A DNA stretch of 36,441 bases, from contig JACRGQ010000036.1 in assembly GCA_016217735.1 (NCBI GenBank), positions 1 to 36,441 of the forward strand. The letters run 5' to 3'. Numbering within the stretch: the first letter of the stretch is position 1; every line of letters starts with the position of its first letter. Made by a program: the position numbers and the translations under genes. The DNA is from Nitrospinota bacterium. GTDB lineage: Bacteria > Nitrospinota_A > UBA7883 > JACRGQ01. The notes under the pieces are model-generated. The model searched no databases, was not told the DNA's origin, and saw only the letters and a list, made by a program, of their open reading frames with translations. Shown here piece after piece: positions 3,579 to 25,449 of the stretch.

Positions 3579-4412
3579 ATGAAAAAAGCGGCATTCGGGA
3601 TGTTCTCGCGCATGGCGTTGCGGATATTATTTTTTGTGGCGCTTGCCACGGGGATAGCCTCCGCCGAGTATGGCCGCATTGCCGATTCCGCGATAGATGT
3701 TTCAACTCTCAAGATCGACGAAAGCAAATATTTAGGGAAGAAGCTTAATGGCGAAATAGCCCTTGTGGACCAGGATGGGATCCGTTTCAACCTCAAGGAT
3801 ATGTTCGGCAAGCCGCTTATTCTCATTCTTTCCTACTACGCGTGCGACGGGGTCTGTTCCACCGTGAATGCCGACCTGAGGGATGTCCTCGCAAAGGCCG
3901 GAAACGTGGAGATAGGAAAGGATTTCAACGTGCTGACCATTTCGTTCGATAAAAACGATACCGCCGGGGCTATCACCCATTTCCGCAGCGACCTTTCCCT
4001 TCCCCCTAACCAAGCCAGGGCATGGAAACATGCCCTGGCTCTTAATTCCAAAGATGTGGCGGATTTGGCCGCCGGGATCGGTTTCAAGTATTTCTGGTCG
4101 CCCAGCGATCGGATGTTCTTCCATCCCAACGTGTACATCTTCATATCTCCCTCGGGAAGGGCCGCCCGTTATCTGTACGCATCCAGCGTGGGGGCACTCG
4201 ACTTGGAAGTGGCTTTGACCGAAACGGCGGGGGACAAGTTGAGCCCCAGCCAGATCGGCAATCTGCTTGTCAGTTACTGCTACAGCTACAACTATAAAGT
4301 TGGGAAGTACACCCTGAACCTCCCGCTTTTCATCGGCCTCGGCTCGCTTACTATCGGGGGTATCTCGTTTCTTGTCGCCGCTTATGTTCACAAAAGAAAA
4401 AGAACCAATTAA
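3579..4412 (+). CDS. SCO1/SenC-type copper chaperone, membrane anchored
   Basis: 277 residues in a thioredoxin fold. The copper-binding CxxxC (C89-D-G-V-C93) and the distant histidine (FFHPNVYIF, H182) are both present, so it should deliver copper to the CuA centre of subunit II in the periplasm. There is an N-terminal signal (about 10-29) and a second hydrophobic segment close to the C terminus (about 246-268). The C-terminal anchor plus the stretch after the thioredoxin domain resemble SCO proteins of Nitrospira- and Deltaproteobacteria-type oxidase operons. The ATG at 3579 is five bases after the subunit III stop, with a poor ribosome site; the in-frame ATG at 3600 is an alternative and leaves a cleaner signal peptide. 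Confidence 0.88.
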   Translation: MKKAAFGMFSRMALRILFFVALATGIASAEYGRIADSAIDVSTLKIDESKYLGKKLNGEIALVDQDGIRFNLKDMFGKPLILILSYYACDGVCSTVNADLRDVLAKAGNVEIGKDFNVLTISFDKNDTAGAITHFRSDLSLPPNQARAWKHALALNSKDVADLAAGIGFKYFWSPSDRMFFHPNVYIFISPSGRAARYLYASSVGALDLEVALTETAGDKLSPSQIGNLLVSYCYSYNYKVGKYTLNLPLFIGLGSLTIGGISFLVAAYVHKRKRTN

Positions 4413-4425
4413 GGGAGGATCTTTT

Positions 4426-5178
4426 ATGCGTTATGTCTCAGCATTAAGAATTTTGGGAGCGGTTGCGCTAACCGCCGTTCCCGCGTTCGCGTCCGGCGGG
4501 GGAGGGGAAATCGCCGATCCCGCCCACGGATGGGATGTGCTCTGGGAGCACGTTCTGCTCGACCTATTCATCATCGGCGGCCTGTTCGCGGTGGTTGCCG
4601 CCTACTGGCTGTTCAAGTACCGGGCGGATAGTCCGACCGAGGTGGGAACAGGCCCCACGCTTACGCGGGCGCAGATGTTCGGATGGACACTCATTCCGGC
4701 GTTTATCTTCATGGCGGACGACTTTTACCTTGCCGCGAACGGATGGACCCTCTGGAACACCTACCGGACCGTCCCCAAGGACGCGCTGGAGGTCAAGGTG
4801 ACCGCTTCGATGTGGTCATGGAGCTTTGAGTATGACAATGGCGCCACTTCGGATGTTCTGAAGGTTCCGGCGGGGCGGCCCGTCGTGCTGCGGATGACGA
4901 GCGAAGATGTTGTCCACTCGTTCTTTTTGCCGAAGCACCGGGTGAAAGAAGACGTGATGCCCGGGCGGGTAACGTATCTCTGGTTCTACCCCAAAGAGGC
5001 GGGGAAAACCTATGTGACCTGCACCGAATTCTGCGGGGCGCAACACGCCGAGATGAACGCCGACGTTGAGGCGATTCCGGCGGAGGAGTTTAACACTTGG
5101 TTGGCATCGGCCGGCGCCAAGGCCGCGCCGGCGGCCGCCGGCGAGCAGCCTGCCACCGCACCGGGCAGCGCCCTATAA
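4426..5178 (+). CDS. Haem-copper oxidase subunit II with CuA centre
   Basis: 250 residues: signal peptide (cleavage after AFA, near 22), two membrane helices (about 40-62 and 84-104), then a periplasmic cupredoxin domain. All CuA ligands are there: H164 (DVVHSF) and C199-T-E-F-C203-x3-H207-x2-M210. It takes electrons from cytochrome c and passes them to subunit I. No cytochrome c domain is fused; the C terminus is an Ala/Pro-rich tail. The ATG was chosen because AAGGGAGGA lies just upstream. The intact CuA set here is a useful comparison for the altered CuA site of the NosZ-like protein at 7559. Confidence 0.93.
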   Translation: MRYVSALRILGAVALTAVPAFASGGGGEIADPAHGWDVLWEHVLLDLFIIGGLFAVVAAYWLFKYRADSPTEVGTGPTLTRAQMFGWTLIPAFIFMADDFYLAANGWTLWNTYRTVPKDALEVKVTASMWSWSFEYDNGATSDVLKVPAGRPVVLRMTSEDVVHSFFLPKHRVKEDVMPGRVTYLWFYPKEAGKTYVTCTEFCGAQHAEMNADVEAIPAEEFNTWLASAGAKAAPAAAGEQPATAPGSAL

Positions 5179-6761: not shown

Positions 6762-6786
6762 ACGTTTTCCAAACGGAGCCGTATAG

Positions 6787-6819
6787 GCGGGAGCTGTGAA
6801 AGGCTCCCGCTTTTTTTTT
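6787..6819 (+). terminator. Intrinsic terminator of the oxidase operon
   Basis: Perfect 8-bp stem (GCGGGAGC / GCTCCCGC), 8-base loop, then nine T residues. It lies 25 bases after the subunit I stop codon. Confidence 0.92.
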
Positions 6820-7123: not shown

Positions 7124-7540
7124 ATGAAAATAAAGTCAATGGGTTTTGCTTTCGTGTTTGCTCTGGTCTCAATGGTCTTTTTGGCTCAGACCGCGGTTGC
7201 CGAATTGGGCAACGGTTCCACCAACAAAGACTGCTTGCAGGTTGGCACGATAACCAAACTGGGAAATCGTGAGCTTACGATTGCTACCAAATTCGAAAAG
7301 GATAGCAAGACGTACACCATGAAGTTGCATCCCGATGCATACGTGATGACCGGCGACAGAGGCGTCTTCAAAAAGTTTGCGGAATTGAAGGGCGGCGAGC
7401 TGGTTGCGGTGTACGGATGGAATCTGACCGGCAATGACTATGTGGCCAGAAGGATCGTTATTCTGGATTCTAACAGCTACCTGATTAAACGGCTTGACGC
7501 TGATGCCAAGGCCGGCGTTTATTACAAGCACGAAAAATAA
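7124..7540 (+). CDS. Small secreted protein of unknown function upstream of the NosZ-like gene
   Basis: 138 residues with a clear Sec signal peptide (about 1-26, cleavage after AVA). The mature part of about 110 residues reads as beta strands (VGTITKLGNRELTIATKF, then a second set ending ARRIVIL) and suggests a small OB-like barrel of the kind found in DUF5666-type periplasmic proteins; that comparison is weak. One cysteine, no haem motif, few histidines. AGGGGGGGTGA lies 7 bases upstream of the ATG. The NosZ-like gene begins 18 bases after its stop, so the two should be cotranscribed from the promoter near 7001. A helper or assembly role for the copper enzyme is inferred only from position. 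Confidence 0.8.
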   Translation: MKIKSMGFAFVFALVSMVFLAQTAVAELGNGSTNKDCLQVGTITKLGNRELTIATKFEKDSKTYTMKLHPDAYVMTGDRGVFKKFAELKGGELVAVYGWNLTGNDYVARRIVILDSNSYLIKRLDADAKAGVYYKHEK

Positions 7541-7558: not shown

Positions 7559-9361
7559 TTGAAAAAAAAGCTATTTTCTTTATTGACTCTTTCCGCCGCG
7601 CTGGTTGCCCTTAACCTGCCCGCGGAAGCGAAAAAGACTATCCTTACGGATAAAGACGCGCGCGACTGGCACGTCGTTGCCCCGCAGGATAGCGATTACC
7701 CGTTGCGCGACTACGCCATCCTGTACGATGCAGGCGGCACTGACGGCGCCCTCGGGGTTATAGGTATTCCTTCCATGAAGACGTACCGCCACATCAAGTG
7801 CGGCACCGACCTTCACAACTTCCCGTTCTCCGGCTCCAACGCGGGTAACAACAACGGTACGCCCGATGGCAAGTACCTGTATGTTTCCGACAAGGGCGCG
7901 GACACGATCGCTGAAGTGAACCTGCAGACCGGCTGGGTGGAGCGCCTTTTCGCTTTGCCGAAACCGTTCGGCATTCACCACAGCGCGGCTTTGTCCCCTA
8001 ACGGCAAATACCTGTTTGCCACCGGCGAACTCACCGGCAAAATGCTGAAACTGCGGCTTTCCGACGGCGCGACGACGGTTCTTGATATACCGCCGGCCCC
8101 CAGCGCACCGGACTACCCGGATACCAGCAAAGACGGAAAGTACGTCTTCTCGGGCAACTACTATCACTCCGCGGTCATGGTGTTCAGCCAGGATCCGTTC
8201 AAGCTGATCAAGGAAATCCCGGTCGGAAAAAATCCGCACGGCACCAACGTCAGCCCGACGAACCGGATGGTATCGGTTTGCGACAAGCTCTCCGCCACGA
8301 TCTCCATCATCGACGTGGATCAACTGCGCGTGCGCAAGGTTATTCCGGTAGGCGCCGGTCCCCTGCACAACCAGTTCGACACCCTCGGGAAATACGTCTA
8401 CAACTCCTGCTTCGTGTCGGACTCCACTTCGAAGACCGACGTGATGCGTATGCAGTTGGTTGACGAATTCCCGATCCACTACCGCTGCGGTCACAACTCG
8501 ATCGCTCCGGACGATGCGTACTACATGTCCCAGAACAAGTTCTCCACCGGCCTGTTTACCCCGACCGGCATCATCTTTGCCGTTAACTTCGAGGAACAGG
8601 ATATCGACGAAACCAGCCCGACTTACGGCAAATCCGTTAAGCTGATGCCGGTTGACGGCGAGCCGCACGAGGGCCGCCAGATATTTGCCACGTACATCCA
8701 GAGATGGAATACGGGTAAAGGTGAAGATCTGTTTGAAAAGGGCTACGATCTCGGCGACTATCACGTCAGCTTCGGCGAAAAAGGCCGGCCGGGTCTTCCC
8801 GCGAACCAGCACCCGCAGCTCGAGCCGGTTCACACGGCCGACAGTAACCGCACTTGGATTCCCCGCGACGACGGCAAGCCCGGCGTGACGAAGGAAGGCG
8901 ATGTGTACGTTGTCAGGGTAAAAGGCTTCTCCTACGGCTATGTGCCCCGCTTCATCCACGTCCCCAAGGGCGCGAAAGTCCGCTTGATCTATACCAATAT
9001 AGACAAGGCGGCCGGTCTTACCAAGAACCCGGACGTTACCATGGGCTTCACGGCCGCTGGTTACTACGGTCCCCGGACGATGGTATTCGCCGTTCGTGGC
9101 ATGTCCGCGGTAAACGAGTTCGTGGCCGATAAGGCCGGCGAATTCGAATATTACTGCCAGCAGTTCTGCGGACCGTTGCATCTCGAAATGCGCGGCACGT
9201 TGTTCGTTGATCCTCCGGGCGGCAAAGCCTCCATGGGCGTCGGCGATTACGACGAGATGTCCAAGCAAGAGACCATGCTTGCACCGCAGGAACACAAGTG
9301 GATCGTCGGCACCAACAAGCTGATGAACACCTTGCAGGAAGGCAAAGAACCGGTCATTTAA
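7559..9361 (+). CDS. Divergent nitrous-oxide-reductase-like protein (NosZ-like), Sec type
   Basis: 600 residues. A Sec signal peptide (about 1-24) stands where clade I NosZ has a Tat signal. Residues about 45-390 form a seven-bladed propeller and 440-555 a cupredoxin. In NosZ the propeller binds the CuZ cluster, where N2O is reduced to N2. Matching segments here are DLHN (H86), FGIHH (H140, H141), NPHG (H227), GPLH (H270), CGHN (H312) and GEPH (H370): seven histidines, but N87 replaces the second histidine of the usual HH pair and H141 is extra. The cupredoxin has C533-x3-C537-x3-H541-x2-M544, but the first CuA histidine (DLTHGF in NosZ) is M495 (DVTMGF) and the Trp between the cysteines is Gln. 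Start is TTG with GGAGGGGGTGG upstream. Activity on N2O is inferred; the family fold is near certain. Confidence 0.85.
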   Translation: MKKKLFSLLTLSAALVALNLPAEAKKTILTDKDARDWHVVAPQDSDYPLRDYAILYDAGGTDGALGVIGIPSMKTYRHIKCGTDLHNFPFSGSNAGNNNGTPDGKYLYVSDKGADTIAEVNLQTGWVERLFALPKPFGIHHSAALSPNGKYLFATGELTGKMLKLRLSDGATTVLDIPPAPSAPDYPDTSKDGKYVFSGNYYHSAVMVFSQDPFKLIKEIPVGKNPHGTNVSPTNRMVSVCDKLSATISIIDVDQLRVRKVIPVGAGPLHNQFDTLGKYVYNSCFVSDSTSKTDVMRMQLVDEFPIHYRCGHNSIAPDDAYYMSQNKFSTGLFTPTGIIFAVNFEEQDIDETSPTYGKSVKLMPVDGEPHEGRQIFATYIQRWNTGKGEDLFEKGYDLGDYHVSFGEKGRPGLPANQHPQLEPVHTADSNRTWIPRDDGKPGVTKEGDVYVVRVKGFSYGYVPRFIHVPKGAKVRLIYTNIDKAAGLTKNPDVTMGFTAAGYYGPRTMVFAVRGMSAVNEFVADKAGEFEYYCQQFCGPLHLEMRGTLFVDPPGGKASMGVGDYDEMSKQETMLAPQEHKWIVGTNKLMNTLQEGKEPVI

Positions 9362-9400: not shown

Positions 9401-9438
9401 AGAGGGGCCGGTTGCAAAACCGGCCCCTCTATTTTTTG
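9401..9438 (+). terminator. Strong intrinsic terminator after the NosZ-like gene
   Basis: Perfect 13-bp stem (AGAGGGGCCGGTT / AACCGGCCCCTCT) with a GCAA tetraloop, followed by ATTTTTTG. It separates the NosZ-like gene from the cytochrome b operon. Confidence 0.95.
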
Positions 9439-9505: not shown

Positions 9506-10006
9506 ATGAAGTTTGTTATGCGGGCGTTTGTTTGTTTAATTCTGGCGGCAGCCGTCTCTCCCGGATGCACAAAAAAATCGGCTAATTTTCCCGAGACAAC
9601 ACCTGAACTAGTCGCCACCCGGTTCTTCAAGCTTCTGGCGGATGGCGGACGTCTTGCCAATCAGGAAGCGTTTAAAATGGTATCCACAAAATATGGCGTG
9701 GTAAGCATCGACTCGTTCAGAAAATGGACGGAAAACATCGGATCGTCGAAGTCAAAGATTAAAGTGGCTCAGACGATTCTTCCGAAAGAGCCGAACAAAA
9801 ATGGCGACTGGGTCGCGGTGGTGAAACTGGAAGTGAGCTCACCATCGCTATTTGACGCCGATTTCACCACTTCAAGCCAGATGAATCTCATTCTTGATGA
9901 AAAGGCCGGTGAGTGGCAAGTGGATTTCAATGCTGAAACGATAGACGAAACGGCATTCATGAAAGACACCGCGGGCGCAAATAGCGCGGAAGCGGCTGCA
10001 AAATAA
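9506..10006 (+). CDS. Predicted lipoprotein of unknown function
   Basis: 166 residues. The hydrophobic N terminus ends in AVSPGC, a lipobox-like cleavage site at Cys21, so the mature protein is probably lipid-anchored in the periplasm. The rest (TPELVATRFFKLLADGG, then a strand-rich region ending WQVDFNAETIDETAF) resembles the small cone-shaped NTF2-like/DUF4878 lipoproteins, whose roles are mostly unknown; the match is only a general one. A GGGGGA is about 12 bases upstream of the ATG, rather far. It opens the operon that carries the cytochrome b genes; the next start codon is eight bases after its stop. Confidence 0.75.
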   Translation: MKFVMRAFVCLILAAAVSPGCTKKSANFPETTPELVATRFFKLLADGGRLANQEAFKMVSTKYGVVSIDSFRKWTENIGSSKSKIKVAQTILPKEPNKNGDWVAVVKLEVSSPSLFDADFTTSSQMNLILDEKAGEWQVDFNAETIDETAFMKDTAGANSAEAAAK

Positions 10007-10014
10007 GGCACACC

Positions 10015-10647
10015 ATGAAAAAAATTATCGGATGGATTGACGAACGCCTTGGAATTGTCCAATTCTACCACAATCAGGTGGCATTTGAGCTGCCTGAAAG
10101 CGTTACCTTATGGCATTTTTTTAGCGGCCTAACCATCGGTTGTGTAGGTATCCAGTTTCTGACCGGTTTCTACATGGTCATGTACTATGTTCCGGAACCG
10201 AATCTTGCCCACCAAAGCATCCGGGAGATGTGCCAGCTATCCAACTTTGGCGCGTTGATGCGAAACCTGCACCGCTGGAGCGCGACATTCGGCGCCCTTT
10301 TCGTCATGCTGCATGTTTTTCACACGATGGGAAGAAAAGCGTATAAAAGCCCCCGCGAACTGAATTGGTTCACCGGCCTCGTCTTGGGGGTGATTTTTCT
10401 TCTTTTTCTTATAACCGGCATTATCGCGCCGTGGGACTGGAGAAGCTATTGGGAACTGATCATATGGGCCGACTGGGTTGACCTGATTCCGGTGGTCGGC
10501 AATTGGCTGAAAGGTCTCATTTTGGGATCGTTCACCCTTGGCCGTAATTTTGCGGTGCATATCATTATGTTGCCGATATTGTTTTTCGCCGTTCTTTTTG
10601 TCCATATTGTATTGATGCGGCGGCTTGGAATGGCCAAGAAAGTATGA
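10015..10647 (+). CDS. Cytochrome b (b6/N-terminal domain type) of a bc-type complex
   Basis: 210 residues with four membrane helices. Two pairs of bis-histidine haem b ligands are visible: H86 and H100 (LHRWSATFGALFVMLHVFH), H182 and H196. The 14/14 spacing fits bacterial and mitochondrial cytochrome b; b6 has 14/15. The N-terminal FELPESVTLWHFFSGLT and TGIIAPWDW segments are typical of split cytochrome b6-like subunits. With the next gene it should oxidise quinol at the membrane and send electrons to the periplasm. A Rieske protein, the usual partner, is not in the window. The location between the NosZ-like gene and two propeller genes suggests it supplies electrons to the copper enzyme. 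Confidence 0.92.
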   Translation: MKKIIGWIDERLGIVQFYHNQVAFELPESVTLWHFFSGLTIGCVGIQFLTGFYMVMYYVPEPNLAHQSIREMCQLSNFGALMRNLHRWSATFGALFVMLHVFHTMGRKAYKSPRELNWFTGLVLGVIFLLFLITGIIAPWDWRSYWELIIWADWVDLIPVVGNWLKGLILGSFTLGRNFAVHIIMLPILFFAVLFVHIVLMRRLGMAKKV

Positions 10648-10672
10648 ACTGGCAAATAGGGGGAATCCAGCC

Positions 10673-11389
10673 ATGAACGATACAAACGCCGGTAAGAAAC
10701 GGGGATTATTCTGGTGGCCCACTTACCTGTTGATCCTTTCGATCATTATGGCCGCCTTGGTTGTGGTAATGGTCTATCTTTCGATCAAATATCCGGTGCC
10801 GTATTTGGCCCCCGACGAAGTCCCGATGCCGGACGAAGGTGAGAACATTCCCGGTCCCGAATGGATATTCCTGCTTTTCTGGCAGGGCTTTTGGTATTTT
10901 GGCGGCAGCATGAAAAAATTCCTTGTTTGGATGCCGGTCATTCCGATCTTGATGTTGGTATTTTTTATTTTTTTGCCGGCTATGTCCAAGGTGCCGTTTG
11001 ACCGCATACCGGGACTTAAGAATCTGATTGAAAAGGCAAGGGGATTGAAGCCTGGGCTTATAAGAAGCTTTACTTTTGCCTTGCCCGCGGTGATATTCGC
11101 TTTCGTTATTCTTATCGGGGTTTATAAGAGCGGTCATCAGGCAAAAGTCCTTGGTTGCGATTCGTGCCACAACGCCGCGATGGGGTCGAGAATGGACAAG
11201 GCCCCCGCGAACGTGGCGAAGTATTATGCAACGGAACGCGCGCTGCAAATCGGGGTTGGCAAGTATCGGGCCGGCAAACTTCTCGCCGAAGGCGACACAA
11301 GCGGAGAAGCAAGCAGGGATGAAGGGCAGGGATACAAGGACGCAAATTGGCAAATGAGGCACATGTATGAACCTACGTTCACCTGGTAG
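10673..11389 (+). CDS. Cytochrome b subunit IV fused to a c-type cytochrome domain
   Basis: 238 residues. The first 155 form three membrane helices with PEWI (62-65), a variant of the PEWY motif of the quinol-oxidation site. The C-terminal 80 residues hold one haem c site, C162-D-S-C165-H166. Fusion of the b-type subunit IV to a cytochrome c gives a direct exit path from quinol to the periplasm. ATG at 10673 was chosen because ATAGGGGG precedes it; a TTG at 10625 overlaps the previous gene and would add 16 polar residues. The cytochrome c part ends in RHMYEPTFTW, where Met is a possible sixth haem ligand. The next gene starts inside its last codons (23-base overlap), so translation is probably coupled. 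Confidence 0.9.
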   Translation: MNDTNAGKKRGLFWWPTYLLILSIIMAALVVVMVYLSIKYPVPYLAPDEVPMPDEGENIPGPEWIFLLFWQGFWYFGGSMKKFLVWMPVIPILMLVFFIFLPAMSKVPFDRIPGLKNLIEKARGLKPGLIRSFTFALPAVIFAFVILIGVYKSGHQAKVLGCDSCHNAAMGSRMDKAPANVAKYYATERALQIGVGKYRAGKLLAEGDTSGEASRDEGQGYKDANWQMRHMYEPTFTW

Positions 11390-12602
11390 CATTTCCCGGC
11401 GGACGTTTAAACCCCTATCCCTTTTGACCTCGGCGGGGTTGACGTTCTTGTTGGCCTTTACCGGAGCCGCGCGGGCTGCGGACGCGCCGGCAACGGGCCT
11501 CGGCGTAAAAGTAAAGCCGAAAATCACCGCCATCGCTCCAAAGGAAGTTAAAGGCGATGTGCGCATCGTTCAATATCCCGTGCCTTCCCGTTACGCCACG
11601 CCGTATGGCATAGCGGTGGACTCCAAAGACAGGGTATGGTGTACATTGATGAGCGCCAACTCGCTGCTCAGTCTTGACCCCGCGAAGGGCGAGTTCAAAA
11701 CTTACCGGATACCTTCCACCGAAGGGTTGCCGGAATCAGACTGGAAATACGACTCCAAAAACAGGACATCGCCGGATAAAGCCTACAACGTTTACAGTGT
11801 CGGCAGCCCCGGCAATGTGATCGTGGGGAAAAACGATATCATCTGGTTTGTGATGCATTTGGGCAACAGTATTGTCCGGTTCGATCCGGCCACCGAGGAA
11901 TTCACCGAATTTCTCTTGCCGACCAAAAACGGCCAGCCGTATGATTTGGCAGAAGATTTTCGCGGCCGGATATGGTTTGTGGAAAAGAACGGTTCGAAGT
12001 TCGGGTTCCTTGACACCGCTAATAAGAAAATAACCGAAATACCGCTTCCGGCCGGAAGCCAGTTGATGGGGATCGCGGTGGATGCCGCCGGGATTGTTTA
12101 CCTGAGCGAAGTCAGCAACAACTATATCGGCAAGTATGAACCGGAAACCCGGAAATTCAGGCAATTCCCGATTCCCGCGGTGAAGGCGCAGCCGGGGAAG
12201 ATGCAGTTCGGTAAAGCGGGGATGCTTTGGTTTTGTGCATTGCACTCCAAGCAGATCGGCGTTCTTTATACCGACAAAGGATTGTTTGGGCTGACCGAAC
12301 CGCCGGGCTACAATGCCGCTCCGCAAGCCATTGCTCCGGCCAAAGACGGGTATATCTGGTACATTGACAGCATGATGAACACTATCGGGTATTTTGACCA
12401 GCAGGCCGTCAGTTTCGGTACCTTCGAGCTTCCTTCGATGGGCGCCCAGCCGATGAGCATCGCCATCGATTCGAAAGGGGATGTCTGGTTTACCGAAAGC
12501 GACAGGGGCGCAAATCAGATATCAATGCTGATCCGTTCATCGGTTCCCAAAGGCAATGCGTTGCCCCACGTCCATGCGGCCCCTGGCGGCCATGCCCATT
12601 AA
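11367..12602 (+). CDS. Tat-exported seven-bladed propeller protein (Vgb/streptogramin-lyase-like) with His-rich tail
   Basis: 411 residues. The N terminus carries SRRTFKP followed by a hydrophobic stretch ending ARA near 37, a good twin-arginine signal, so it may be folded or loaded with cofactor before export. The mature part has seven repeats of about 42 residues of the type AIDSKGDVWFTE...N.I..FDP, characteristic of the virginiamycin B lyase (COG4257) beta-propellers. The His and Glu residues used for antibiotic cleavage in Vgb are not evident, so a resistance role is unlikely. The C terminus is HVHAAPGGHAH, a possible copper or nickel site. Its start overlaps the cytochrome gene. A part in copper supply to, or electron transfer with, the NosZ-like enzyme is inferred from context. 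Confidence 0.85.
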   Translation: MNLRSPGSISRRTFKPLSLLTSAGLTFLLAFTGAARAADAPATGLGVKVKPKITAIAPKEVKGDVRIVQYPVPSRYATPYGIAVDSKDRVWCTLMSANSLLSLDPAKGEFKTYRIPSTEGLPESDWKYDSKNRTSPDKAYNVYSVGSPGNVIVGKNDIIWFVMHLGNSIVRFDPATEEFTEFLLPTKNGQPYDLAEDFRGRIWFVEKNGSKFGFLDTANKKITEIPLPAGSQLMGIAVDAAGIVYLSEVSNNYIGKYEPETRKFRQFPIPAVKAQPGKMQFGKAGMLWFCALHSKQIGVLYTDKGLFGLTEPPGYNAAPQAIAPAKDGYIWYIDSMMNTIGYFDQQAVSFGTFELPSMGAQPMSIAIDSKGDVWFTESDRGANQISMLIRSSVPKGNALPHVHAAPGGHAH

Positions 12603-12622
12603 ATCCGGATAAAGAACTTCCC

Positions 12623-13747
12623 ATGGCGTTTTCGGCATATTCAAATCGCGGTTGCCACAGCGTGCCGCTTCAGCGGCGTTTGATGATGGGACGGTTGACC
12701 GGCTTGGCAAACGGTTCGGCTTTCAAGGGAATCCTGTTGGCCTTGATGTTGTCGGTTGCCGCCGCTCCGGTGGCGCGCGGCTATGAGCTGATAACAGAGT
12801 ACGATATCCCGCAAAAAGAGAGCTATCCCACCGCCATTACCTCCACGGCGGATGGCAAAATCTGGTTTATCGAATTCAATGCCAACGCGCTGGTAAGTTT
12901 CGATACTGAGTCGGGCGTAATGAAGGAATTTCCCATTCTTTCGGGTAAAAGCCACGCCATGGATATCGCCGCTGACGGAAACGGCATCCTGTGGGTGGCG
13001 GAGCAGGATGTCAACGTGATAGGGAGGTTCGATCCCCGGACGGGAACTTTTAAGGAGTATCTGATTCCATTCAAGGACGTCAACCCGATCGTGGTGTATG
13101 CCGCGCGTAACGGTGATATATGGACACTTGGCTGGAATAACAACATGCTGGTTCGTTTCCGGCCCGGCACCGAAAAATTCGACAACTTCCATATTCCGAC
13201 GCCGAACAGCAGCAGTTTTGATCTGACGGAGGATCACGCCGGCAACATATGGTTCGTCGAACGTGGCGGCAACAAGATCGCCATGTTCAACCCCGAAAAA
13301 AAGAAGTTCCGCGAGTGGGCCTTGTCGGAGTCCATACAGTCCCCCCTTGGCACGGCGATCGATTCCAAAGGGATGGTCTGGTACCTCAAAATGGTCGACA
13401 ACATGATTGTGCGTTTCGATCCGAAAACGGCGAAGCAAGAGACTTTCGACATGCCGAAAAACAAGGGAACCAAGGAAATAGCGATAGACCAATCGGATAA
13501 CATCTGGATGGTTCAACACACCGATAACAGGTTGCTCCGCTTCAACACCAAAACCGCCACGATGCAAACTTTCGATCTCGCCGAAGGGGAATCGAAGCCG
13601 AACTCCCTGGCGATAGACCACAAGGGGCGTGTTTGGTTTACCGAATCCGGCACCGGGAAACTAGGCATGCTGGACACCGCAAAGCTGCTTGACGAAAAGA
13701 GAAAGATGCGGGTTAAGATAAAGACCACCGAGAAACTATTCAGGTGA
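12623..13747 (+). CDS. Second seven-bladed propeller protein (Vgb-like), secreted
   Basis: 374 residues. Seven propeller repeats can be counted, with signatures such as GKIWFIE, GILWVAE, GDIWTLG, GNIWFVE, GMVWYLK, DNIWMVQ and GRVWFTE at about 42-residue intervals. A hydrophobic segment ending VARG (about 37-53) is a Sec signal. The stated ATG gives an unusually long n-region; the ATG at 12683 would make a normal signal peptide and may be the true start. Neither has a strong ribosome site. No His-rich tail and no metal motif is visible. It is related to the preceding propeller but clearly divergent, so the pair is an old duplication or two separate gains. Function unknown. Its stop overlaps the next GTG start. 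Confidence 0.82.
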   Translation: MAFSAYSNRGCHSVPLQRRLMMGRLTGLANGSAFKGILLALMLSVAAAPVARGYELITEYDIPQKESYPTAITSTADGKIWFIEFNANALVSFDTESGVMKEFPILSGKSHAMDIAADGNGILWVAEQDVNVIGRFDPRTGTFKEYLIPFKDVNPIVVYAARNGDIWTLGWNNNMLVRFRPGTEKFDNFHIPTPNSSSFDLTEDHAGNIWFVERGGNKIAMFNPEKKKFREWALSESIQSPLGTAIDSKGMVWYLKMVDNMIVRFDPKTAKQETFDMPKNKGTKEIAIDQSDNIWMVQHTDNRLLRFNTKTATMQTFDLAEGESKPNSLAIDHKGRVWFTESGTGKLGMLDTAKLLDEKRKMRVKIKTTEKLFR

Positions 13748-16629
13748 AAAGGGCCTTCCTTTTCGGTCTTTTTTTCATTTCAGGCTCCGCCGGCCTTATC
13801 TACGAGATTGTCTGGGTAAGGGAACTGACCCTTTTGCTGGGCGTAAGCATTTACGCGGTGAGCGCGGTGCTGGTCGCGTTCATGGGGGGCCTCGGCTTCG
13901 GCGCGGTATACTTTGGCAAAAAGCTGGATCGGGGCCTCGCTCCAATACGGCTTTACGCCGCCCTTGAGATGGCAATCGCGGTCTATGTGCTTTTATTCCC
14001 CTTTATCCTGCAGGGCCTTGAGAGGGCGTATGTACTGTTGCATCCGGGTGACGGGGGAAACCCGCTATACGTCATGGCGTTGCGTTTCGTTCTGGCGATA
14101 TCGGCGCTTTTGATCCCCACCGCCCTGATGGGGGGCACACTTCCCGCGTTAAGCCGTTATCTTGCGCAAAGCGGGCGAGGTATCGGCAAATCGGTGGGGA
14201 GCCTGTACGCGGTCAATACGCTGGGCGCGGTGGTTGGATGCGTTCTCGCGGGTTTTTGGCTGATCGAGCATATCGGCCTGTCGGGTTCCCTCAGGGTTGG
14301 CGCGGTGATGAACATCGTGTGCGGCATCGGCGCGTTCCTGCTGGCGGCGGAGGCCGGTTGGGCATCCGTTCCCGCCAGTGAAGTGAAAGCGGCTTCGACA
14401 TCGGCGGATGACTTCGTTTTACCGCGCAAATCCATCCTGTTCCTTTTCGGCGTTTCAGGTTTTTGCGCAATGGCCCTCGAAGTCCTTTGGACAAGGATGT
14501 TCATTCTCCTTTTGAATAACACCACTTATGCGTTCTCCCTGATATTGGCGATTTTCCTTTTGGGAATCGGCACCGGGAGCGCGTTGACGGCCCGCATGAT
14601 GAAAAAAGCGCCGCGCAACGGGGCGTTCCTGTTTGGCGGATTTCAGATGGGCATTGGGCTGTTCGCGCTGGTGTCGCTGGCGGGACTTCTTTTCAACCGG
14701 GAACTGATAGGTCTGGTGGGGGCCGCTGGCAGCGGTTTCCTTGCTTCCGTGATACCGGGCGGCAACCCGATGGCCGAAGCGGTTATTTTCTCCATGATAA
14801 TAGTATTTCCCGCCACGTTCCTCATGGGAGGCGGCTTTCCACTTATCCTCGGCGCCATTTTTTCCGTCCCGGAGAAGACAGGAGGCATGGTGGGCCGGTT
14901 TTACGCCATGAATATCGCCGGATGCGTTTTGGGATCCCTTGCCGCCGGGTATCTGTTTATCCCGCTTCTAGGCATACGGGCGGGCATTGTGACTGTTTCA
15001 TGGATAGCCATTTTCGCCGGCGTTTACCTTCAGATAAAATCCACGGACAGGAAGGAGCGGTCGCGCGCCGTTTTCGCGGTGGTTTGCCTGCTGGCAATAA
15101 CCATCGGCGTTGTTGCCGCCGGCGATACCGCCTACGCCCTGAGCGCCCAAAAACTGGAGGCTGGCAGCAGGGTGAAATACTACCGGGAAGGGCCTTCCGC
15201 GACAGTCCTGGTCTCCTCGCTGGATTCCGACCTGTCGGTGAACCGCAAACCGGTCACGCGGATATGGATAAACGGCGACCCGATAGCGGGGGCCTTCCGC
15301 GAGGCGTTGCAGCTTGAGCGGCTTCAGGCCCACATACCGCTCATGATGCACCCGTCGCCCAAAAAGGCGCTCGTCATATGCTTCGGCACCGGTTCCACCG
15401 CGGGAGCCGCGGCCGCACACGGCCTCCAGCGGGTAACCGCCGTTGATATTTCCCGCGAGGTGTTCGGCGCGGCGGACAAATTCGCCGAGGCAAACTTTAA
15501 CGTGGCGCGGAACCCGTCCTTTTCCATGGTGGAGGAAGACGGGCGGAATTTCCTGCTCACGACGCAAGAGACGTTCGATCTCATAACCTCCGAGCCGCCG
15601 CCCCCCTCCAATGCCGGCATCGTGAGCCTGTACACGAGGGAATATTACCTGCTGTGCAAAAAAAGGCTTGCCGAAAAGGGGATCGTGTCGCAGTGGATAC
15701 CGTTGCACCACCTTTCGGAGGAGGATTTCCGCGCGCTGGTGGCGACATTTGTTGACGTTTTCCCCAACGCCACGATGTGGTACACGAAGTGGGACGCCAT
15801 CATGATTGGGTCGAATGCCGGCGTTCCCCTCGATTTTTCCGGATTTCAGGATGGGATGATGAACGGTGCGGTCGCCGAAAGCCTGAAGGGGATCGGTATC
15901 GTGAACCCTTATCAGCTTCTTTCAAATTTCATGATGGATTCAGAAAATATCCGGCGGTTTGCGGCGGGCGCCGCGCCGGTCACCGACGACCGCCCGTACA
16001 TCGAGTTTTCCGCCCCCCGCATACACGAGACGGGCGTTGCCATAAAGGGGCGGAATCTTGAAAATCTCCTCAAATACCGCGGGCTGCCGAAAGCCGTGTT
16101 CGCATCGGCGGAGCAGGAAAAGGTTTTCCAGGGCTATTTCCGATCCGAAGAGGAGTTTTTGAGGGGTCAGATAGAGCAGAGCGACGGCCATTTCGGCGCC
16201 GCCGCCAAGCGGTTCAGCCGCGCCCTTGAGATAAACCCGGACAATCCGGACGCCCGGTACGCCCATCTTTCGCTTAACATCACGACGCTTTATTCGGCGC
16301 TGTCGAAAAACCAGCCGGATATGGGGCTGCAACTGCTTGCGGATACCGAAAGGATGGATACCGGCGGCCTTTTCAGGGTGCAGACCCATTTTCTCAAGGG
16401 GATGTTTCTCGCCGGCCGGGGAAGCAGCTACGAAGCCGAACGGGAATTCCTCGAGGCCCTTAAATTGGACCCCCAGTATATGATGGCCGCGGTAAACCTT
16501 GCGGGACTCTATGGTTTTGTGTTAAAGAATGAGATTAAAGCAAAAGAGTACTATAATTATGCGTTAACGCTTGATCCATCGGAAAGCGAGCGGCAAGCGA
16601 TACTTGAAGCTCTGGGCAAGTTGACGTAA
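13744..16629 (+). CDS. Membrane spermidine-synthase-like protein with C-terminal TPR repeats
   Basis: 961 residues in three parts. Residues 1-450 hold about 12-14 membrane helices, starting GSAGLIYEIVWVRELTLLLG, as in the fused transporter/spermidine-synthase-like family. Residues about 470-770 form a spermidine-synthase-like Rossmann domain with a glycine loop GTGS (548-551) and the acidic strand end D568. Residues 815-955 contain tetratricopeptide repeats (FSRALEINPDNPDARYAHL, AEREFLEALKLDP). The function of this family is unknown; many members occur next to periplasmic redox or export genes and lack proof of polyamine synthesis. GTG start at 13744 overlaps the previous stop by four bases (GTGA), showing tight coupling to the propeller gene. 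Confidence 0.85.
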   Translation: MKRAFLFGLFFISGSAGLIYEIVWVRELTLLLGVSIYAVSAVLVAFMGGLGFGAVYFGKKLDRGLAPIRLYAALEMAIAVYVLLFPFILQGLERAYVLLHPGDGGNPLYVMALRFVLAISALLIPTALMGGTLPALSRYLAQSGRGIGKSVGSLYAVNTLGAVVGCVLAGFWLIEHIGLSGSLRVGAVMNIVCGIGAFLLAAEAGWASVPASEVKAASTSADDFVLPRKSILFLFGVSGFCAMALEVLWTRMFILLLNNTTYAFSLILAIFLLGIGTGSALTARMMKKAPRNGAFLFGGFQMGIGLFALVSLAGLLFNRELIGLVGAAGSGFLASVIPGGNPMAEAVIFSMIIVFPATFLMGGGFPLILGAIFSVPEKTGGMVGRFYAMNIAGCVLGSLAAGYLFIPLLGIRAGIVTVSWIAIFAGVYLQIKSTDRKERSRAVFAVVCLLAITIGVVAAGDTAYALSAQKLEAGSRVKYYREGPSATVLVSSLDSDLSVNRKPVTRIWINGDPIAGAFREALQLERLQAHIPLMMHPSPKKALVICFGTGSTAGAAAAHGLQRVTAVDISREVFGAADKFAEANFNVARNPSFSMVEEDGRNFLLTTQETFDLITSEPPPPSNAGIVSLYTREYYLLCKKRLAEKGIVSQWIPLHHLSEEDFRALVATFVDVFPNATMWYTKWDAIMIGSNAGVPLDFSGFQDGMMNGAVAESLKGIGIVNPYQLLSNFMMDSENIRRFAAGAAPVTDDRPYIEFSAPRIHETGVAIKGRNLENLLKYRGLPKAVFASAEQEKVFQGYFRSEEEFLRGQIEQSDGHFGAAAKRFSRALEINPDNPDARYAHLSLNITTLYSALSKNQPDMGLQLLADTERMDTGGLFRVQTHFLKGMFLAGRGSSYEAEREFLEALKLDPQYMMAAVNLAGLYGFVLKNEIKAKEYYNYALTLDPSESERQAILEALGKLT

Positions 16630-19039: not shown

Positions 19040-19159
19040 TTGAACCAAAAGTATTTTACGTTCTTGGCTGCCTTTGCGGTTTTCGCGGTTATTTTCTTTT
19101 CGGTGGATTACTTCCTTCAGGCTTATCAGGGCTTGGCGCTTTTTCCTAAAGGGGAATAA
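19040..19159 (+). CDS. 39-residue single-helix membrane protein upstream of the bd-like gene
   Basis: A TTG start at 19040 is preceded by AAAAAGGGGGA at good spacing and opens a 39-residue frame: a short polar start (NQKY), one membrane helix of about 20 residues (FTFLAAFAVFAVIFF...), and a short tail. The frame continues upstream to an ATG at 18974, but that version adds polar sequence and has no ribosome site. It ends 25 bases before the bd-like gene. Size, topology and place recall the CydX/CydS-type small subunits of cytochrome bd, although the sequence is not recognisable as one. A small structural subunit of the bd-like complex is my inference. Confidence 0.6.
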   Translation: MNQKYFTFLAAFAVFAVIFFSVDYFLQAYQGLALFPKGE

Positions 19160-19184
19160 GAATATTAACGGCTTAGGGGACAAA

Positions 19185-21116
19185 ATGAAGGTTAGGTTTA
19201 TGTTTTCACATCTCAAGAAAGTGTTGTTTCAACGTAGCCCCTCGGTTTACAGGTTTGGCGTGGCGCTTGCCTCGCTGCTTGTTATCCCGGCGGCGCTCTC
19301 GTTCAATTCATTGGATATCAGCCATCCGGTTCTGAAGGCGGCCGCCAATGCGGTCTCGGTTCAGAAGGTTTGGGCCAACGAAGCGGCTCCGGCCGCGGCG
19401 CCGGCTGCTGAAGCCAAGAAAGACGAGAAAAAGGGTCCTGAAGAATGGGCGCCTCAGTCGCCTCCCAAGCTGGAAGCGAAAGACTACCCGGTCGTTAAAG
19501 GCTTTAACAGCCGCATAACCGTGTGGTTCATCGCCCAGTTGCATCTGTTCTTTGGCGCGTTCGTTCTCGCGGTTCCGATCTTTGTGTGGCTCATCGAGCT
19601 TACCGGGGTCATGACGAAGGACGAGCGGTATGACCACATGGCCCACGAGTTCATGAAGGTGGCCATGACCGGGTTCTCGCTTGCCGCGAGCTTTGGCGGT
19701 CTTCTCTCCATCGCCCTTGTCGTTTTCTATCCCCAATTCATGACCTATATGGTGGGTATATTCGGCAAAGTGATGATTTTCTACGCTCTCGCGTTTTTCG
19801 CGGAAAGTTTCTTCCTGTACACCTACTACTACGGGTGGGACAAAATGTCCGAAGGGAAAGCCAAGACCCTCCACCTTGGTTTGGGCTTGGGCCTGAACCT
19901 GGCGGGTGTGTTCCTTATGATGGTTTCCAACTCCTGGGCGTCGTTCATGATGGCTCCCTCAGGGCTGGATGATGCGGGCGTATTCCAGGGAGATGTCTGG
20001 GCGGCCATTCAGGGCCACCTCTGGAACCCGATCAACATCCACCGTTTCGTCGCCAACATCGCTTATGGTGGTTCGTTGACCGCCGCTTATGCGGCGTATA
20101 AGTTCCTCACGGCGAAAACGCCGCAGGAAAAGGCGCACTATGACTGGATGGGGTACACATCGTTCTTCATCGCGATCATCGGTCTTCTTCCATTGCCGTT
20201 CGCCGGTTACTGGCTCACCAAGGAAATTTACGACTACTCGCAACAGATGGGCATCACCCTCATGGGCGGCGCCTTTGCGTGGCTGTTCATCCTCCAGGCG
20301 GTGCTCATCGGCACGATATTCCTTTCGGCCAACTACTACCTCTGGTGCTGTCTGGCGCGTTCGCCCGGCGCCAACAGATACGCGTTTATGATCAAGCCAA
20401 TAGCCATTGTCATCGTGGGGATGTTCCTTGCATGGTTCACCCCGCACACGCTGGTCATGACCTCGAAGGAACTGACGCAAATCGGCGGCGCGCACCATCC
20501 GTTACTCGGTAAGTTGGGCGTTATGGCCGCAAAGAACACGGCGGTCAACTTCCTTATCGTATTGACGTTCCTCAGCTTCCAGATTTATCAGCGGAGCAAC
20601 AAGCGGGCGGTCGGCGACAGCTTCTGGGCCACCAACGGCACCACGGTTCAAATTGCCCTTTACGCGGCGGGTTTGGCTAACATCCTGATCCTTGGGATAT
20701 ACAGCTACTATCTGCCCGCCAGCGTACGCATCGGCCTTTCCGTTCCACAGGTCAGCACAACCCTTATTGTGATTGTCACCTCCTTCATTCTTGACGGCAA
20801 AATCTTCAAGAAGAGCGAAGAGATGGGGGAAACCAAATGGGGGAATATGCCTGTCCGTTCGCAGTATGCCCTTTTCACCTTGACCATCGGTTTTACCTGG
20901 TTGATGGGGCTTATGGGGTACGTCCGGTCGGCCATTCGGCAGCACTGGCACGTTTACACTGTGTTCAGGGACAACTCGCCTGACGCGTTTACGCCGACGT
21001 TGCCCTATGCCGCGGGTGTGGTTACAGTGATCGTCTGTGTCTTCATCGCCCTTGTCCTTTTCATGTTCTGGATGCCGATGTTGGCAGCCAAAAAAGGTTC
21101 TTCAGGGGAGCATTAA
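19185..21116 (+). CDS. CydA-like cytochrome bd-family subunit (bd-like oxidase)
   Basis: 643 residues and about thirteen membrane helices. CydA landmarks: H120 (QLHLFFGAF) matches the high-spin haem histidine, E207 (FAES) the conserved haem-pocket glutamate, SNSW (248-251) the NGW segment, and H286 (HRFVANIAYGG) the low-spin haem histidine. Met322 (YDWMGY) might be the low-spin haem methionine. Missing are the second CydA glutamate (E99 in E. coli) and the GRQPW motif tied to quinol oxidation. An N-terminal helix (about 25-42) and an Ala/Pro/Lys linker precede the core. It resembles the bd-like oxidases of Nitrospira, thought to work with cytochromes c. ATG chosen for AGGGGA upstream. The acceptor could be O2 or another small molecule. 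Confidence 0.82.
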   Translation: MKVRFMFSHLKKVLFQRSPSVYRFGVALASLLVIPAALSFNSLDISHPVLKAAANAVSVQKVWANEAAPAAAPAAEAKKDEKKGPEEWAPQSPPKLEAKDYPVVKGFNSRITVWFIAQLHLFFGAFVLAVPIFVWLIELTGVMTKDERYDHMAHEFMKVAMTGFSLAASFGGLLSIALVVFYPQFMTYMVGIFGKVMIFYALAFFAESFFLYTYYYGWDKMSEGKAKTLHLGLGLGLNLAGVFLMMVSNSWASFMMAPSGLDDAGVFQGDVWAAIQGHLWNPINIHRFVANIAYGGSLTAAYAAYKFLTAKTPQEKAHYDWMGYTSFFIAIIGLLPLPFAGYWLTKEIYDYSQQMGITLMGGAFAWLFILQAVLIGTIFLSANYYLWCCLARSPGANRYAFMIKPIAIVIVGMFLAWFTPHTLVMTSKELTQIGGAHHPLLGKLGVMAAKNTAVNFLIVLTFLSFQIYQRSNKRAVGDSFWATNGTTVQIALYAAGLANILILGIYSYYLPASVRIGLSVPQVSTTLIVIVTSFILDGKIFKKSEEMGETKWGNMPVRSQYALFTLTIGFTWLMGLMGYVRSAIRQHWHVYTVFRDNSPDAFTPTLPYAAGVVTVIVCVFIALVLFMFWMPMLAAKKGSSGEH

Positions 21117-21125
21117 GAGGAAAAA

Positions 21126-21986
21126 ATGGAAGGAAAAAAAGGTAACTCAGAACTGGGGAAAATCCTCGGTTACGGCTTGTTTATCATGGTGGCCTTCGCG
21201 GGCTACGCAAAATTCGGAATACCGTTGGTTATTCCGGAAGCGCCCCCGGTTGAGGAAAAAATCACCGGCGCAATGACCAAAGACCAGTTTGTCGCGATGG
21301 GCGACAAGATATTCCACGGCAAGGGAACCTGCACACTTTGCCACAGTCCGGTCGGCGGCCGCGCCCCGATTCTTGACACCGTTGGTTCAAAAGCGGCCGA
21401 ACGCTTGAAAGACGCGCGCTACAAGGGCAAGGCCAAGACCGGCGAGGAATACATCCGCGAATCGATGGTTGACCCGTCGGCGTTTGTTGTCGCGGGGTTT
21501 GGTAAACCGGGATCCAACGATAGCGTAAGCCCGATGCCGAATATCAACAAGGGGGCCATCGGCCTTAACGATGTTGAGATCAACTCCGTTATCGCCTATT
21601 TGCAGAAATCAGGCGGCGCTGAAGTAACGGTTCCGCTTCCGACTGGCGCTGCACCAGCGGCACCGGCAGGCGCTGAAGCCGCCGCGCCCACACCGGCGGC
21701 AACAGCCGAAGAGGCCTTCAACAAGTTCGGTTGCGTAACTTGCCATAAGGTTCCCGGTATCGCCGAAGGCGGAGATATGGGACCCGATCTTACCAAGTTG
21801 GCGAAGGCCGCAGGTTCCAGGAAGCCCGGTATGAGCGGCGAGATGTACATCATCGAGTCGATATCGAACCCGAATGCGTATGTGGTTAAGGGATTTGAGC
21901 CCGATATGATGCCCGCCGATCTTGGCAATTCGGTCACCATGTCCGAGATGAACCTGATTGTCAACGCGCTGCTTGGGAAGAAATAG
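21126..21986 (+). CDS. Membrane-anchored dihaem cytochrome c
   Basis: 286 residues. One N-terminal helix (about 13-33) anchors the protein and is not followed by a cleavage site. Two cytochrome c domains follow with haem sites C69-T-L-C72-H73 and C203-V-T-C206-H207, joined by an Ala/Pro-rich linker (about 170-197). Each domain ends in a segment with methionines suited as the sixth ligand (SPMPNI near 140, DMMPADLG near 260). It should carry electrons on the periplasmic side toward the bd-like subunit, whose gene ends nine bases before it. GAGGAAAAA precedes the ATG. Confidence 0.92.
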   Translation: MEGKKGNSELGKILGYGLFIMVAFAGYAKFGIPLVIPEAPPVEEKITGAMTKDQFVAMGDKIFHGKGTCTLCHSPVGGRAPILDTVGSKAAERLKDARYKGKAKTGEEYIRESMVDPSAFVVAGFGKPGSNDSVSPMPNINKGAIGLNDVEINSVIAYLQKSGGAEVTVPLPTGAAPAAPAGAEAAAPTPAATAEEAFNKFGCVTCHKVPGIAEGGDMGPDLTKLAKAAGSRKPGMSGEMYIIESISNPNAYVVKGFEPDMMPADLGNSVTMSEMNLIVNALLGKK

Positions 21987-22004
21987 GGAGACGAGGGTAG
22001 AAAG

Positions 22005-22784
22005 ATGCATTTTTTAAAACCGATAATTGGTGTTTTTGTAGCCTATCTCCTCATAAAGATAGGAGTCCCGTTTTTAGGTTCGCTGTCCCATCCCGGCACG
22101 TGGCCGGTTGTGCCAACAGCCGTCATGAAAATGTACCTCTTCTTCATAATTGCGGGAGCTTTCTTGGCCAGCACGTTTAGCGAAGAGGGGTACAATGGGC
22201 TTGTCGGGCCGATAGTTGACCTGTACGGCAATCCGGCCAAGGCGAAACTTCGCCTTGGCGCCGTCACCGTCATCAGCCTCCTTGGTTGCTGGGTCGCCTA
22301 CCAGTATGTTAAGCCGACCTTCGAGGCACCGGTCGAACTGCGGTCGGTTCACCCCGCGCCTCCTTCCACGGCGAGCATGTGGGGCAAAACGTTTGAATTG
22401 CAGACGCTCAAAAATCCGTTCCGCGAAGACAAGGCGAATTTCGCCAAGAACGTGGAAGAGGGCGGAATCATCTATTACAAGAACTGCTTCTATTGCCATG
22501 GCGACAAGCAGGACGGTAAGGGACATTTCTACTCCGCATTCAACCCGATTCCCGCTAACTTTGTCGACGTTGGCACCATCGCGATGTTGACCGAGTCCTT
22601 CGTGTTCTGGCGTATCGGCACGGGTGGCCCCGGCCTTCCTTCCGAAGGTGCGCCGTGGGCAACCGCGATGCCGGTGTGGCACGCCATGCTTTCCGAGGAG
22701 GAAGTGTGGAAGGTTACAATGTTCATCTACGAACAGAGCGGGGTGCAGCCGCGCGTAACCGCGACTGTTGCAGAGAAGAAATAG
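22005..22784 (+). CDS. Membrane monohaem cytochrome c with three N-terminal helices
   Basis: 259 residues. Three hydrophobic segments (about 5-27, 36-55 and 80-98) are followed by a periplasmic cytochrome c domain with C161-F-Y-C164-H165 and the typical GDKQDGKGHFY segment after it. A late ATAMPVWHAML offers a methionine ligand. The combination of three helices and one cytochrome c looks like a membrane-docking subunit of the bd-like complex; I do not recognise a named family. Start supported by GGGAGACGAGGG upstream. It lies 19 bases after the dihaem cytochrome gene and 8 bases before the next start. Confidence 0.9.
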   Translation: MHFLKPIIGVFVAYLLIKIGVPFLGSLSHPGTWPVVPTAVMKMYLFFIIAGAFLASTFSEEGYNGLVGPIVDLYGNPAKAKLRLGAVTVISLLGCWVAYQYVKPTFEAPVELRSVHPAPPSTASMWGKTFELQTLKNPFREDKANFAKNVEEGGIIYYKNCFYCHGDKQDGKGHFYSAFNPIPANFVDVGTIAMLTESFVFWRIGTGGPGLPSEGAPWATAMPVWHAMLSEEEVWKVTMFIYEQSGVQPRVTATVAEKK

Positions 22785-22791
22785 GGGAGAA

Positions 22792-24354: not shown

Positions 24355-24388
24355 CAGGTTGAAATTTTAACCAGAAAGGATAGGGGAC

Positions 24389-25051
24389 ATGATAAAAAGA
24401 GGTATTACCGTATTTGCATTGGCGCTCCTGCTCGCGGTTCCGTCCGCGTTTGCGGCGGATGGGGGGGCAATCGTTAAACCGTGTGGCAGTTGCCACAAGC
24501 TGACCGGCCCGGCCGTAAAGACCATCGCGGAAGTGAAGGCCCGGAAAGCGCCCGACCTGTTCTACGCGGGCAGCAAGTTTAACAAGGACTGGCTGGTGGG
24601 GTTCCTTCAGAACCCGACCGTTATCCGTCCCGCCGGCACCGTGTATGCCAACAACATCAAGACCACGGGCGACACCGACACGGTGGCCGCTCCGCCGAAG
24701 TGCGCCTCCAAGCTGAGCGCCGGTGACGCCGCCGCGGCAGCCGATTACCTTATGACCCTCAAGGATGCCAGCATGAAGGCCGGCGTCGCGAAGATCGGCG
24801 AATTCTCCAAGGCCAAGGCCAAGATGCTTGTAATCAAGACCGAAGCCTGCAACGGCTGCCACTCCATCGAAGGCAACGGCGGTTTGTCCTGCCCGACGTT
24901 TGAAGGAATTGGCAAACGGTTGAACCCGGATTGGGTGTACTCCTTCGTGCAAGATCCGCAGCACTGGGATCCGAAGGTCTGGATGGCAAAGCGTGAGCTT
25001 GATGACGCGTCCATGCAGCTTGTTGTGAACTACATCGCTTCGTTGAAATAA
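24389..25051 (+). CDS. Periplasmic dihaem cytochrome c
   Basis: 220 residues. Sec signal peptide (cleavage after AFA near 22), then two haem sites, C32-G-S-C35-H36 immediately at the mature N terminus and C154-N-G-C157-H158. The parts around them (FNKDWLVGFLQNPTVIRP and LNPDWVYSFVQDPQHWDP) repeat each other, which points to an internal duplication of one cytochrome domain. It is soluble in the periplasm and probably shuttles electrons inside this cluster. AAAGGATAGGGG precedes the ATG, 34 bases after the previous stop. Confidence 0.9.
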   Translation: MIKRGITVFALALLLAVPSAFAADGGAIVKPCGSCHKLTGPAVKTIAEVKARKAPDLFYAGSKFNKDWLVGFLQNPTVIRPAGTVYANNIKTTGDTDTVAAPPKCASKLSAGDAAAAADYLMTLKDASMKAGVAKIGEFSKAKAKMLVIKTEACNGCHSIEGNGGLSCPTFEGIGKRLNPDWVYSFVQDPQHWDPKVWMAKRELDDASMQLVVNYIASLK

Positions 25052-25065
25052 GGAGGAGGTTATAG

Positions 25066-25449
25066 ATGAAAACGATGGTAATTTCAAAGTTCTCCGCGGC
25101 GATCTTCGCGGCGGCGCTCTTCCTGGCGGGCGGGATGGTTGGTTCGGCCTCGGCGGAAACCGCCGCTGATAATTACAACTTGTACTGTGTTCAGTGCCAC
25201 GGCACCGCCGGTACCGGCAAAGGGATCAACTCGCCGTATCTGGCGGTTGCCCCCAGAAATCACTCGGATCCAAAAGCGATGGGCGAGCTTTCCGATGCGA
25301 ACGTCGCGCTGGCTATCAAAGAAGGCGGTTCGGCGGTCGGCAAGTCCACGCAGATGCCCTCTTTCAAGCACAACTTGACCGATGCGGAAATAAAGGACAT
25401 CGTTGCCCTTCTCCGCACCAAGTGCAAATGCACGGGTGCCGCGAAATAA
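25066..25449 (+). CDS. Small periplasmic monohaem cytochrome c
   Basis: 127 residues. Sec signal peptide (cleavage after ASA near 30), one haem site C41-V-Q-C44-H45 followed by GTAGTGKG, and a methionine ligand candidate in TQMPSFKHNL (near 102). The family is the class I cytochrome c / CccA type. The C terminus holds two more cysteines (KCKC, near 120) that are not part of a haem motif. It is the last gene of the cluster, with AAGGAGGAGG just upstream of the ATG, and is a likely soluble electron donor or acceptor. Confidence 0.92.
   Translation: MKTMVISKFSAAIFAAALFLAGGMVGSASAETAADNYNLYCVQCHGTAGTGKGINSPYLAVAPRNHSDPKAMGELSDANVALAIKEGGSAVGKSTQMPSFKHNLTDAEIKDIVALLRTKCKCTGAAK

Follow-up and report, generated by a model that had tools for sequence, protein, structure and literature searches.

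The locus and its genes

The window analysed here, a 36,441-nucleotide contig (JACRGQ010000036.1) from a Nitrospinota bacterium, carries at 7559..9361 on the forward strand an intact open reading frame for a 600-residue protein that resembles the lactonase-type nitrous-oxide (N2O) reductases (L-NosZ), an assignment based on its match to the NCBIfam model NF052460, its position in a tree, and its fold. The gene has a TTG start codon, which is preceded by GGAGGGGG, and its product is composed of a Sec-type signal peptide (judged by eye, with no twin arginine), a seven-bladed propeller, and a C-terminal cupredoxin. Eighteen bases upstream of it lies the gene for a 138-residue partner protein (7124..7540, forward strand), which is a full member of the NOV5WD8W family (NF052405, 203.9 bits for a cut-off of 170; PMC10849945). 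Terminator-like hairpins on the same strand bracket these two genes: one is located between cox1 and the NOV5WD8W gene (6785..6812, 11 pairs and then a T run) and the other 3' of the L-NosZ gene (9401..9430, 13 pairs and then a T run). A functional tie to the adjacent cox operon was considered and rejected, because cox genes do not lie beside L-NosZ in sister loci and a hairpin intervenes.

Downstream, again on the forward strand, is a small lipoprotein (9506..10006) that has no Pfam or NCBIfam match and whose counterparts (22-71% identity) come after most L-NosZ genes of all phyla. It is followed by a cytochrome b6-type protein (10015..10647; PF00033, 114.8 bits), which is a probable quinol-side electron donor, by a membrane protein with one CxxCH haem-c motif at 11156 (10625..11389), its probable partner, and by two Vgb-lyase-like propeller proteins (PF24684; 11367-12602 and 12623-13747, together 11367..13747). 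Most Nitrospinota loci share this order, as do many of the L-NosZ loci in other phyla, including loci whose L-NosZ passes the NF052460 cut-off. Next comes a 961-residue protein with MFS/spermidine-synthase-like and TPR parts (13744-16629), which is conserved downstream of Nitrospinota L-NosZ and of which several genomes have a paralogue upstream of NOV5WD8W. Further along (28114-31029), a uroporphyrinogen-decarboxylase-like domain is fused to a RACo-type corrinoid-activating domain, in a gene that adjoins those for a B12-binding protein and a sigma-54 regulator.

Relationship to known N2O reductases

The homology extends over nearly the whole of the clade III (lactonase-type) N2O reductase model NF052460, which the protein matches from position 2 to position 479 of 480 with 591.4 bits, below the equivalog cut-off of 700; all 16 Nitrospinota members fall below it (576-614 bits). 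The clade I and II models TIGR04244 and TIGR04246 give 115.1 and 158.5 bits, far under their cut-off of 625. Correspondingly, the Nitrospinota protein is about 54% identical to other L-NosZ and 26-28% identical to clade I/II NosZ. In the tree, the 16 Nitrospinota sequences form a monophyletic group (100/100) that a Nitrospirota L-NosZ joins at 98/99, and they lie with N2O reductases, inside the L-NosZ group, together with members that pass the cut-off and far from canonical NosZ; the branches are long and the deep root is unsure in this tree, which contains only four canonical NosZ and no L-NosZ of Firmicutes. For a structure model (pLDDT 76.9, which is middling; pTM 0.81), the top 50 fold matches in the PDB are N2O reductases without exception (E about 1e-30). 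The whole-chain TM-score of 0.47 is low, perhaps owing to a different placement of the two domains. The sequence-only reading of a copper protein that resembles NosZ and belongs to a divergent lineage is borne out by the NF052460 match and the alignment.

The suggestion that this might be an undescribed branch fares differently. Clade III, or lactonase-type, NosZ has been described (He et al. 2025, Nature 646:152; reference 6 of PMC13122619), and an earlier study already sets Nitrospinota/Nitrospirota members apart as a 'novel clade' in its tree of NosZ (PMC9562985). A branch independent of all known clades might be argued from the 26-28% identity to clade I/II NosZ, but L-NosZ that exceed the NF052460 cut-off are roughly 54% identical to the protein, and the protein lies inside their group. 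These findings refute such independence and leave it hardly credible; only the Nitrospinota sub-branch is distinct. Closest among named relatives are the Nitrospinales MAGs nzgw266 and nzgw267, whose genes, members of the Nitrospirota/Nitrospinota 'novel clade' of Sec-type NosZ, encode proteins 96% and 95% identical to that of 7559-9361 (PMC9562985; PMC11033732). A lactonase-like propeller has been recognised in the Nitrospirota members, and no discussion of the ligand changes or the partner genes was found in the passages of these papers that were covered.

The protein shares with canonical clade I/II NosZ the propeller and cupredoxin, six of the seven CuZ histidine positions, the CuA cysteines, and the Lys/Glu/Phe conduit between the two copper sites. 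It differs in that it lacks the HH pair at the canonical place, has a Met for the CuA gate His, and is encoded in a genome that has neither NosL nor a recognisable NosD. With L-NosZ it shares the full-length match, the seven-His layout with H140-H141, the Met at the gate position, and the cytochrome b, haem-c and propeller neighbours, whereas its sub-cut-off score, several residues near the ligands, and its NOV5WD8W partner set it apart.

The propeller histidines

Alignment with four canonical NosZ assigns the seven CuZ His positions to H86, N87, H140, H227, H270, H312, and H370. The second His of the canonical HH pair is therefore N87, and the other six are kept; an additional His, H141, adjoins H140, such that seven histidines are retained with one of them moved. 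The residues that the sequence-only reading named are as it gave them. The corresponding codons, all on the forward strand, are at 7814..7819 (H86 and N87), 7976..7981 (the relocated pair H140-H141), 8237..8239 (H227), 8366..8368 (H270), 8492..8494 (H312), and 8666..8671 (H370 and E371). As expected for the inner strands of a propeller, the cluster histidines are spaced by about 43 residues (140, 227, 270, 312), with 184 marking a blade that has none.

H86, H140, H141, H227, H270, H312, and H370 are identical in all 33 intact L-NosZ that were aligned. This set is drawn from Nitrospinota, Nitrospirota, Deltaproteobacteria, and Proteobacteria, and it includes L-NosZ above the NF052460 cut-off (701-803 bits). 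The 33 sequences form 14 clusters at 80% identity, and the layout with H141 and with the Met of the CuA site discussed below, which all of them share, is not due to chance. The gene is genuine, intact, and conserved, and its oddities are those of a published family.

In the solved N2O reductase, each blade except IV contributes one CuZ His, and blade II contributes two in a row (PMC11573801). The double His of L-NosZ comes one ligand position later. In P. stutzeri, single replacement at six of the seven CuZ His abolishes metalation (PMC11573801), which means that H141 must substitute for the lost His if a cluster forms; we infer that it stands in for it. If H141 were to fail in this, N87 could be fatal, and copper would then be present only in the cupredoxin, or nowhere, leaving an electron carrier or copper store with a dead propeller site. 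The loss of metalation on most single CuZ replacements in P. stutzeri speaks for such an outcome, but it is quite improbable given that all seven histidines are invariant at a cross-phylum identity of 54-56% and that a truly degenerate relative looks different, having lost H140, H141, H370, M495, and the CuA Cys and His.

That relative, a Nitrospinota protein of 1143 residues (L044:1186-4614), has lost most copper ligands: NN replaces H140-H141, N replaces H370, P replaces M495, and its long C-terminal region has no Pfam match. It constitutes a natural degenerate control.

The CuA site

The cupredoxin retains C533, C537, H541, and M544 of the canonical CuA set of two Cys, two His, and one Met, within the motif C533-Q-Q-F-C537-G-P-L-H541-L-E-M544 (9155..9190, forward strand). 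The first His, which corresponds to H583 of P. stutzeri, is replaced by M495 (codon 9041..9043, forward strand). This Met-for-His pairing, put forward in the sequence-only reading, is found both in the alignment with canonical NosZ and in phmmer comparisons with solved N2O reductases. M495 is identical in 33/33 intact L-NosZ, and the four retained ligands, like the inter-site conduit K327-E368-F536, are likewise invariant in all 33. Consequently, the earlier claim that this protein alone has lost the ligand does not hold, although the neighbouring COX2 (4372-5178) does have a full CuA set, as had been noted with it. Similarly, the Gln reported between the CuA cysteines is present (Q535), but the change from Trp was rejected as a signal: the equivalent residue in canonical NosZ may be W, N, Y, or D. 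The ligand that this residue provides is a backbone carbonyl (PMC11573801).

In the solved enzyme, CuA1 is bound by a His and a Met and CuA2 by a His and the backbone carbonyl, with the two Cys bridging both; crystals show the CuA1 His (P. stutzeri H583) both swung in and swung out, and a role as a gate for electron and proton transfer has been proposed for it (PMC11573801). No published mention of a family-wide Met at this gate position was found in the literature searched, a search that did not extend to the text of He et al. 2025.

Residues that distinguish the Nitrospinota branch

At 23 positions, the 16 Nitrospinota sequences are fixed differently from the 17 other L-NosZ. Five of the 23 are no more than two residues away from a cluster ligand (P=0.0016, in a rough test that ignores shared descent). 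Two of the five make up a reciprocal exchange beside H86 and H370: residue 87 is Asn in 16/16 Nitrospinota members and Glu in the 17 others (His in canonical NosZ), and residue 371 is Glu in Nitrospinota and Asn in the others. Further changes near the ligands are I313N, V272Q, and D230N. The matching ligands of the solved enzyme, H132/H133 and H490, are on blades II and I (PMC11573801). Because these blades are neighbours, it is plausible, from residue positions in the sequence, that a carboxylate of the cluster pocket has changed sides (from E87 to E371). The sequence-only reading did not touch on this exchange, nor on the NOV5WD8W partner or the lack of NosL and of a recognisable NosD; no published mention of the exchange was found in the literature searched, to which the text of He et al. 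2025 did not belong.

These same changes could instead be the marks of a shifted reaction, in which the Nitrospinota branch has kept the fold and the copper sites and works on another substrate, such as another nitrogen oxide, or serves as a redox sensor. The clustering of branch-fixed positions next to the cluster ligands, the failure of all 16 members to reach the equivalog cut-off, and a fixed partner protein tied to this branch (a weak copy lies beside one Nitrospirota L-NosZ) speak for such a shift. However, every presumed metal ligand is conserved, as is the electron conduit; Glu and Asn have traded places instead of being lost; and the genes downstream follow the same order as for L-NosZ above the cut-off. 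A changed reaction is therefore judged unlikely.

The partner protein and maturation

Of the 24 Nitrospinota genomes, the 16 that encode L-NosZ also encode NOV5WD8W, whereas the remaining eight lack it (Fisher P=1.4e-6, without correction for descent); its gene always directly precedes that of L-NosZ in the Nitrospinota branch. Adjacency of this family to a nosZ gene has been published, together with a proposed CusF-like role in place of NosL (PMC10849945); the strict pairing over 24 genomes was not found in the literature searched. The idea of a CusF-like copper chaperone is weakened, because a comparison of 11 NOV5WD8W members reveals not one invariant His, Met, or Cys.

A canonical nos system has NosD and NosL in the genome. 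NosL (PF05573) was found in none of the 24 Nitrospinota genomes. No match to NosD (TIGR04247) exceeded its cut-off in these genomes or in 13 genomes from other phyla that carry L-NosZ; the idea that only Nitrospinota lacks NosD was therefore rejected. In several other phyla, a Gld-type ABC set (ATPase, permease, GldG-like protein, and DUF4340 protein) lies beside L-NosZ, as in L129:12837-17578, L131:12984-17672, L135:6984-11679, and L137:1-4149. Matches near L-NosZ that resemble NosF and NosY were reassigned to this set, where they accompany ABC_transp_aux and DUF4340 proteins. A GldG-like protein is present in 15/16 L-NosZ genomes of other phyla, in a few only as a distant match, and within Nitrospinota a copy above 375 bits is found in 15/16 L-NosZ carriers versus 2/8 other genomes (Fisher P=0.0013, not corrected for descent). 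In the four Nitrospinota genomes whose positions were compared, some 13-15 kb separate the Gld-type ABC copy from L-NosZ, and the genome that the window comes from has it on a different contig. No report of this association was found in the literature searched. The Gld-type ABC set is a candidate maturation factor for the cluster, possibly replacing NosDFY.

A working model

Taken together, these observations argue that the product of 7559-9361 is a working, periplasmic, Sec-exported N2O reductase that forms a Nitrospinota sub-branch of the lactonase-type family, a reading of the sequence to which we give a probability of about 0.72. N2O reductase function is likely because of the NF052460 match, the tree, the invariant ligands and conduit, the fold matches, the intact frames, the shared neighbourhood, the transcription of nzgw266/267 described below, and the title of He et al. 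2025. By that title, the lactonase-type NosZ family reportedly reduces N2O. Counted against it are the scores below the cut-off, the altered neighbours of the active site, the lack of NosL and of a NosD above the cut-off (the latter equally missing from other L-NosZ genomes), the middling model, and its low whole-chain TM-score.

In the proposed mechanism, a CuZ-like copper-sulfide cluster would be held in the propeller by H86, H140, H141, H227, H270, H312, and H370, with one cluster His moved to the next blade and a single carboxylate nearby, which would be E87 in other L-NosZ and E371 in Nitrospinota. In the cupredoxin, a dinuclear CuA would be bound by C533, C537, H541, M544, and a backbone carbonyl, with M495 replacing the gate His. 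Electrons from quinol would pass through the neighbouring cytochrome b and haem-c membrane proteins, for which a route from quinol to cytochrome c is plausible, then to soluble cytochromes c and to CuA; from there they would travel by way of F536, E368, and K327 to the cluster, where N2O would be reduced to N2. Maturation would proceed without NosL or a recognisable NosD, with NOV5WD8W and the Gld-type ABC exporter as candidates. A bolder form of this model, which we offer tentatively as a possibility for the family as a whole, holds that lactonase-type enzymes reduce N2O without the CuA gate His, on a relocated seven-His cluster that needs one carboxylate (E371 in Nitrospinota, otherwise E87), and that the Gld-type ABC exporter (with NOV5WD8W in the Nitrospinota branch) matures them instead of NosL and NosD.

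Elsewhere in the window (19074-25449) are genes for a cytochrome bd-like subunit, cytochromes c, and an EB_dh haem protein. Such a set lies directly upstream of L-NosZ in one Gallionellales and one Sedimenticola genome (L036, L038) and in the same island as L-NosZ in four Nitrospinota genomes. An exclusive tie between the two is weakened by the occurrence of the set in 22/24 Nitrospinota genomes, some without L-NosZ. One may speculate that it is a route for NO reduction where norBC is missing.

Occurrence and implications

L-NosZ was found in 16 of the 24 Nitrospinota genomes searched, in each with a reading frame free of stops. The nzgw266 and nzgw267 genomes have been placed in class UBA7883 by a groundwater (aquifer) study in which their nosZ is the most transcribed nosZ per genome coverage (PMC9562985). 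The occurrence in 16/24 genomes is relevant to a 2024 paper according to which none of the Nitrospinota genomes that it analysed has nosZ (PMC10839748); presumably the lactonase-type gene was overlooked there because it was not recognised as such. Because an entire family carries Met where the gate His would be, the gating idea becomes directly testable, and the Glu/Asn exchange suggests that the cluster pocket contains a carboxylate, which mutation could probe. N2O is a potent greenhouse gas, and so sinks for it that have gone unnoticed in bacteria of groundwater and sediment matter.
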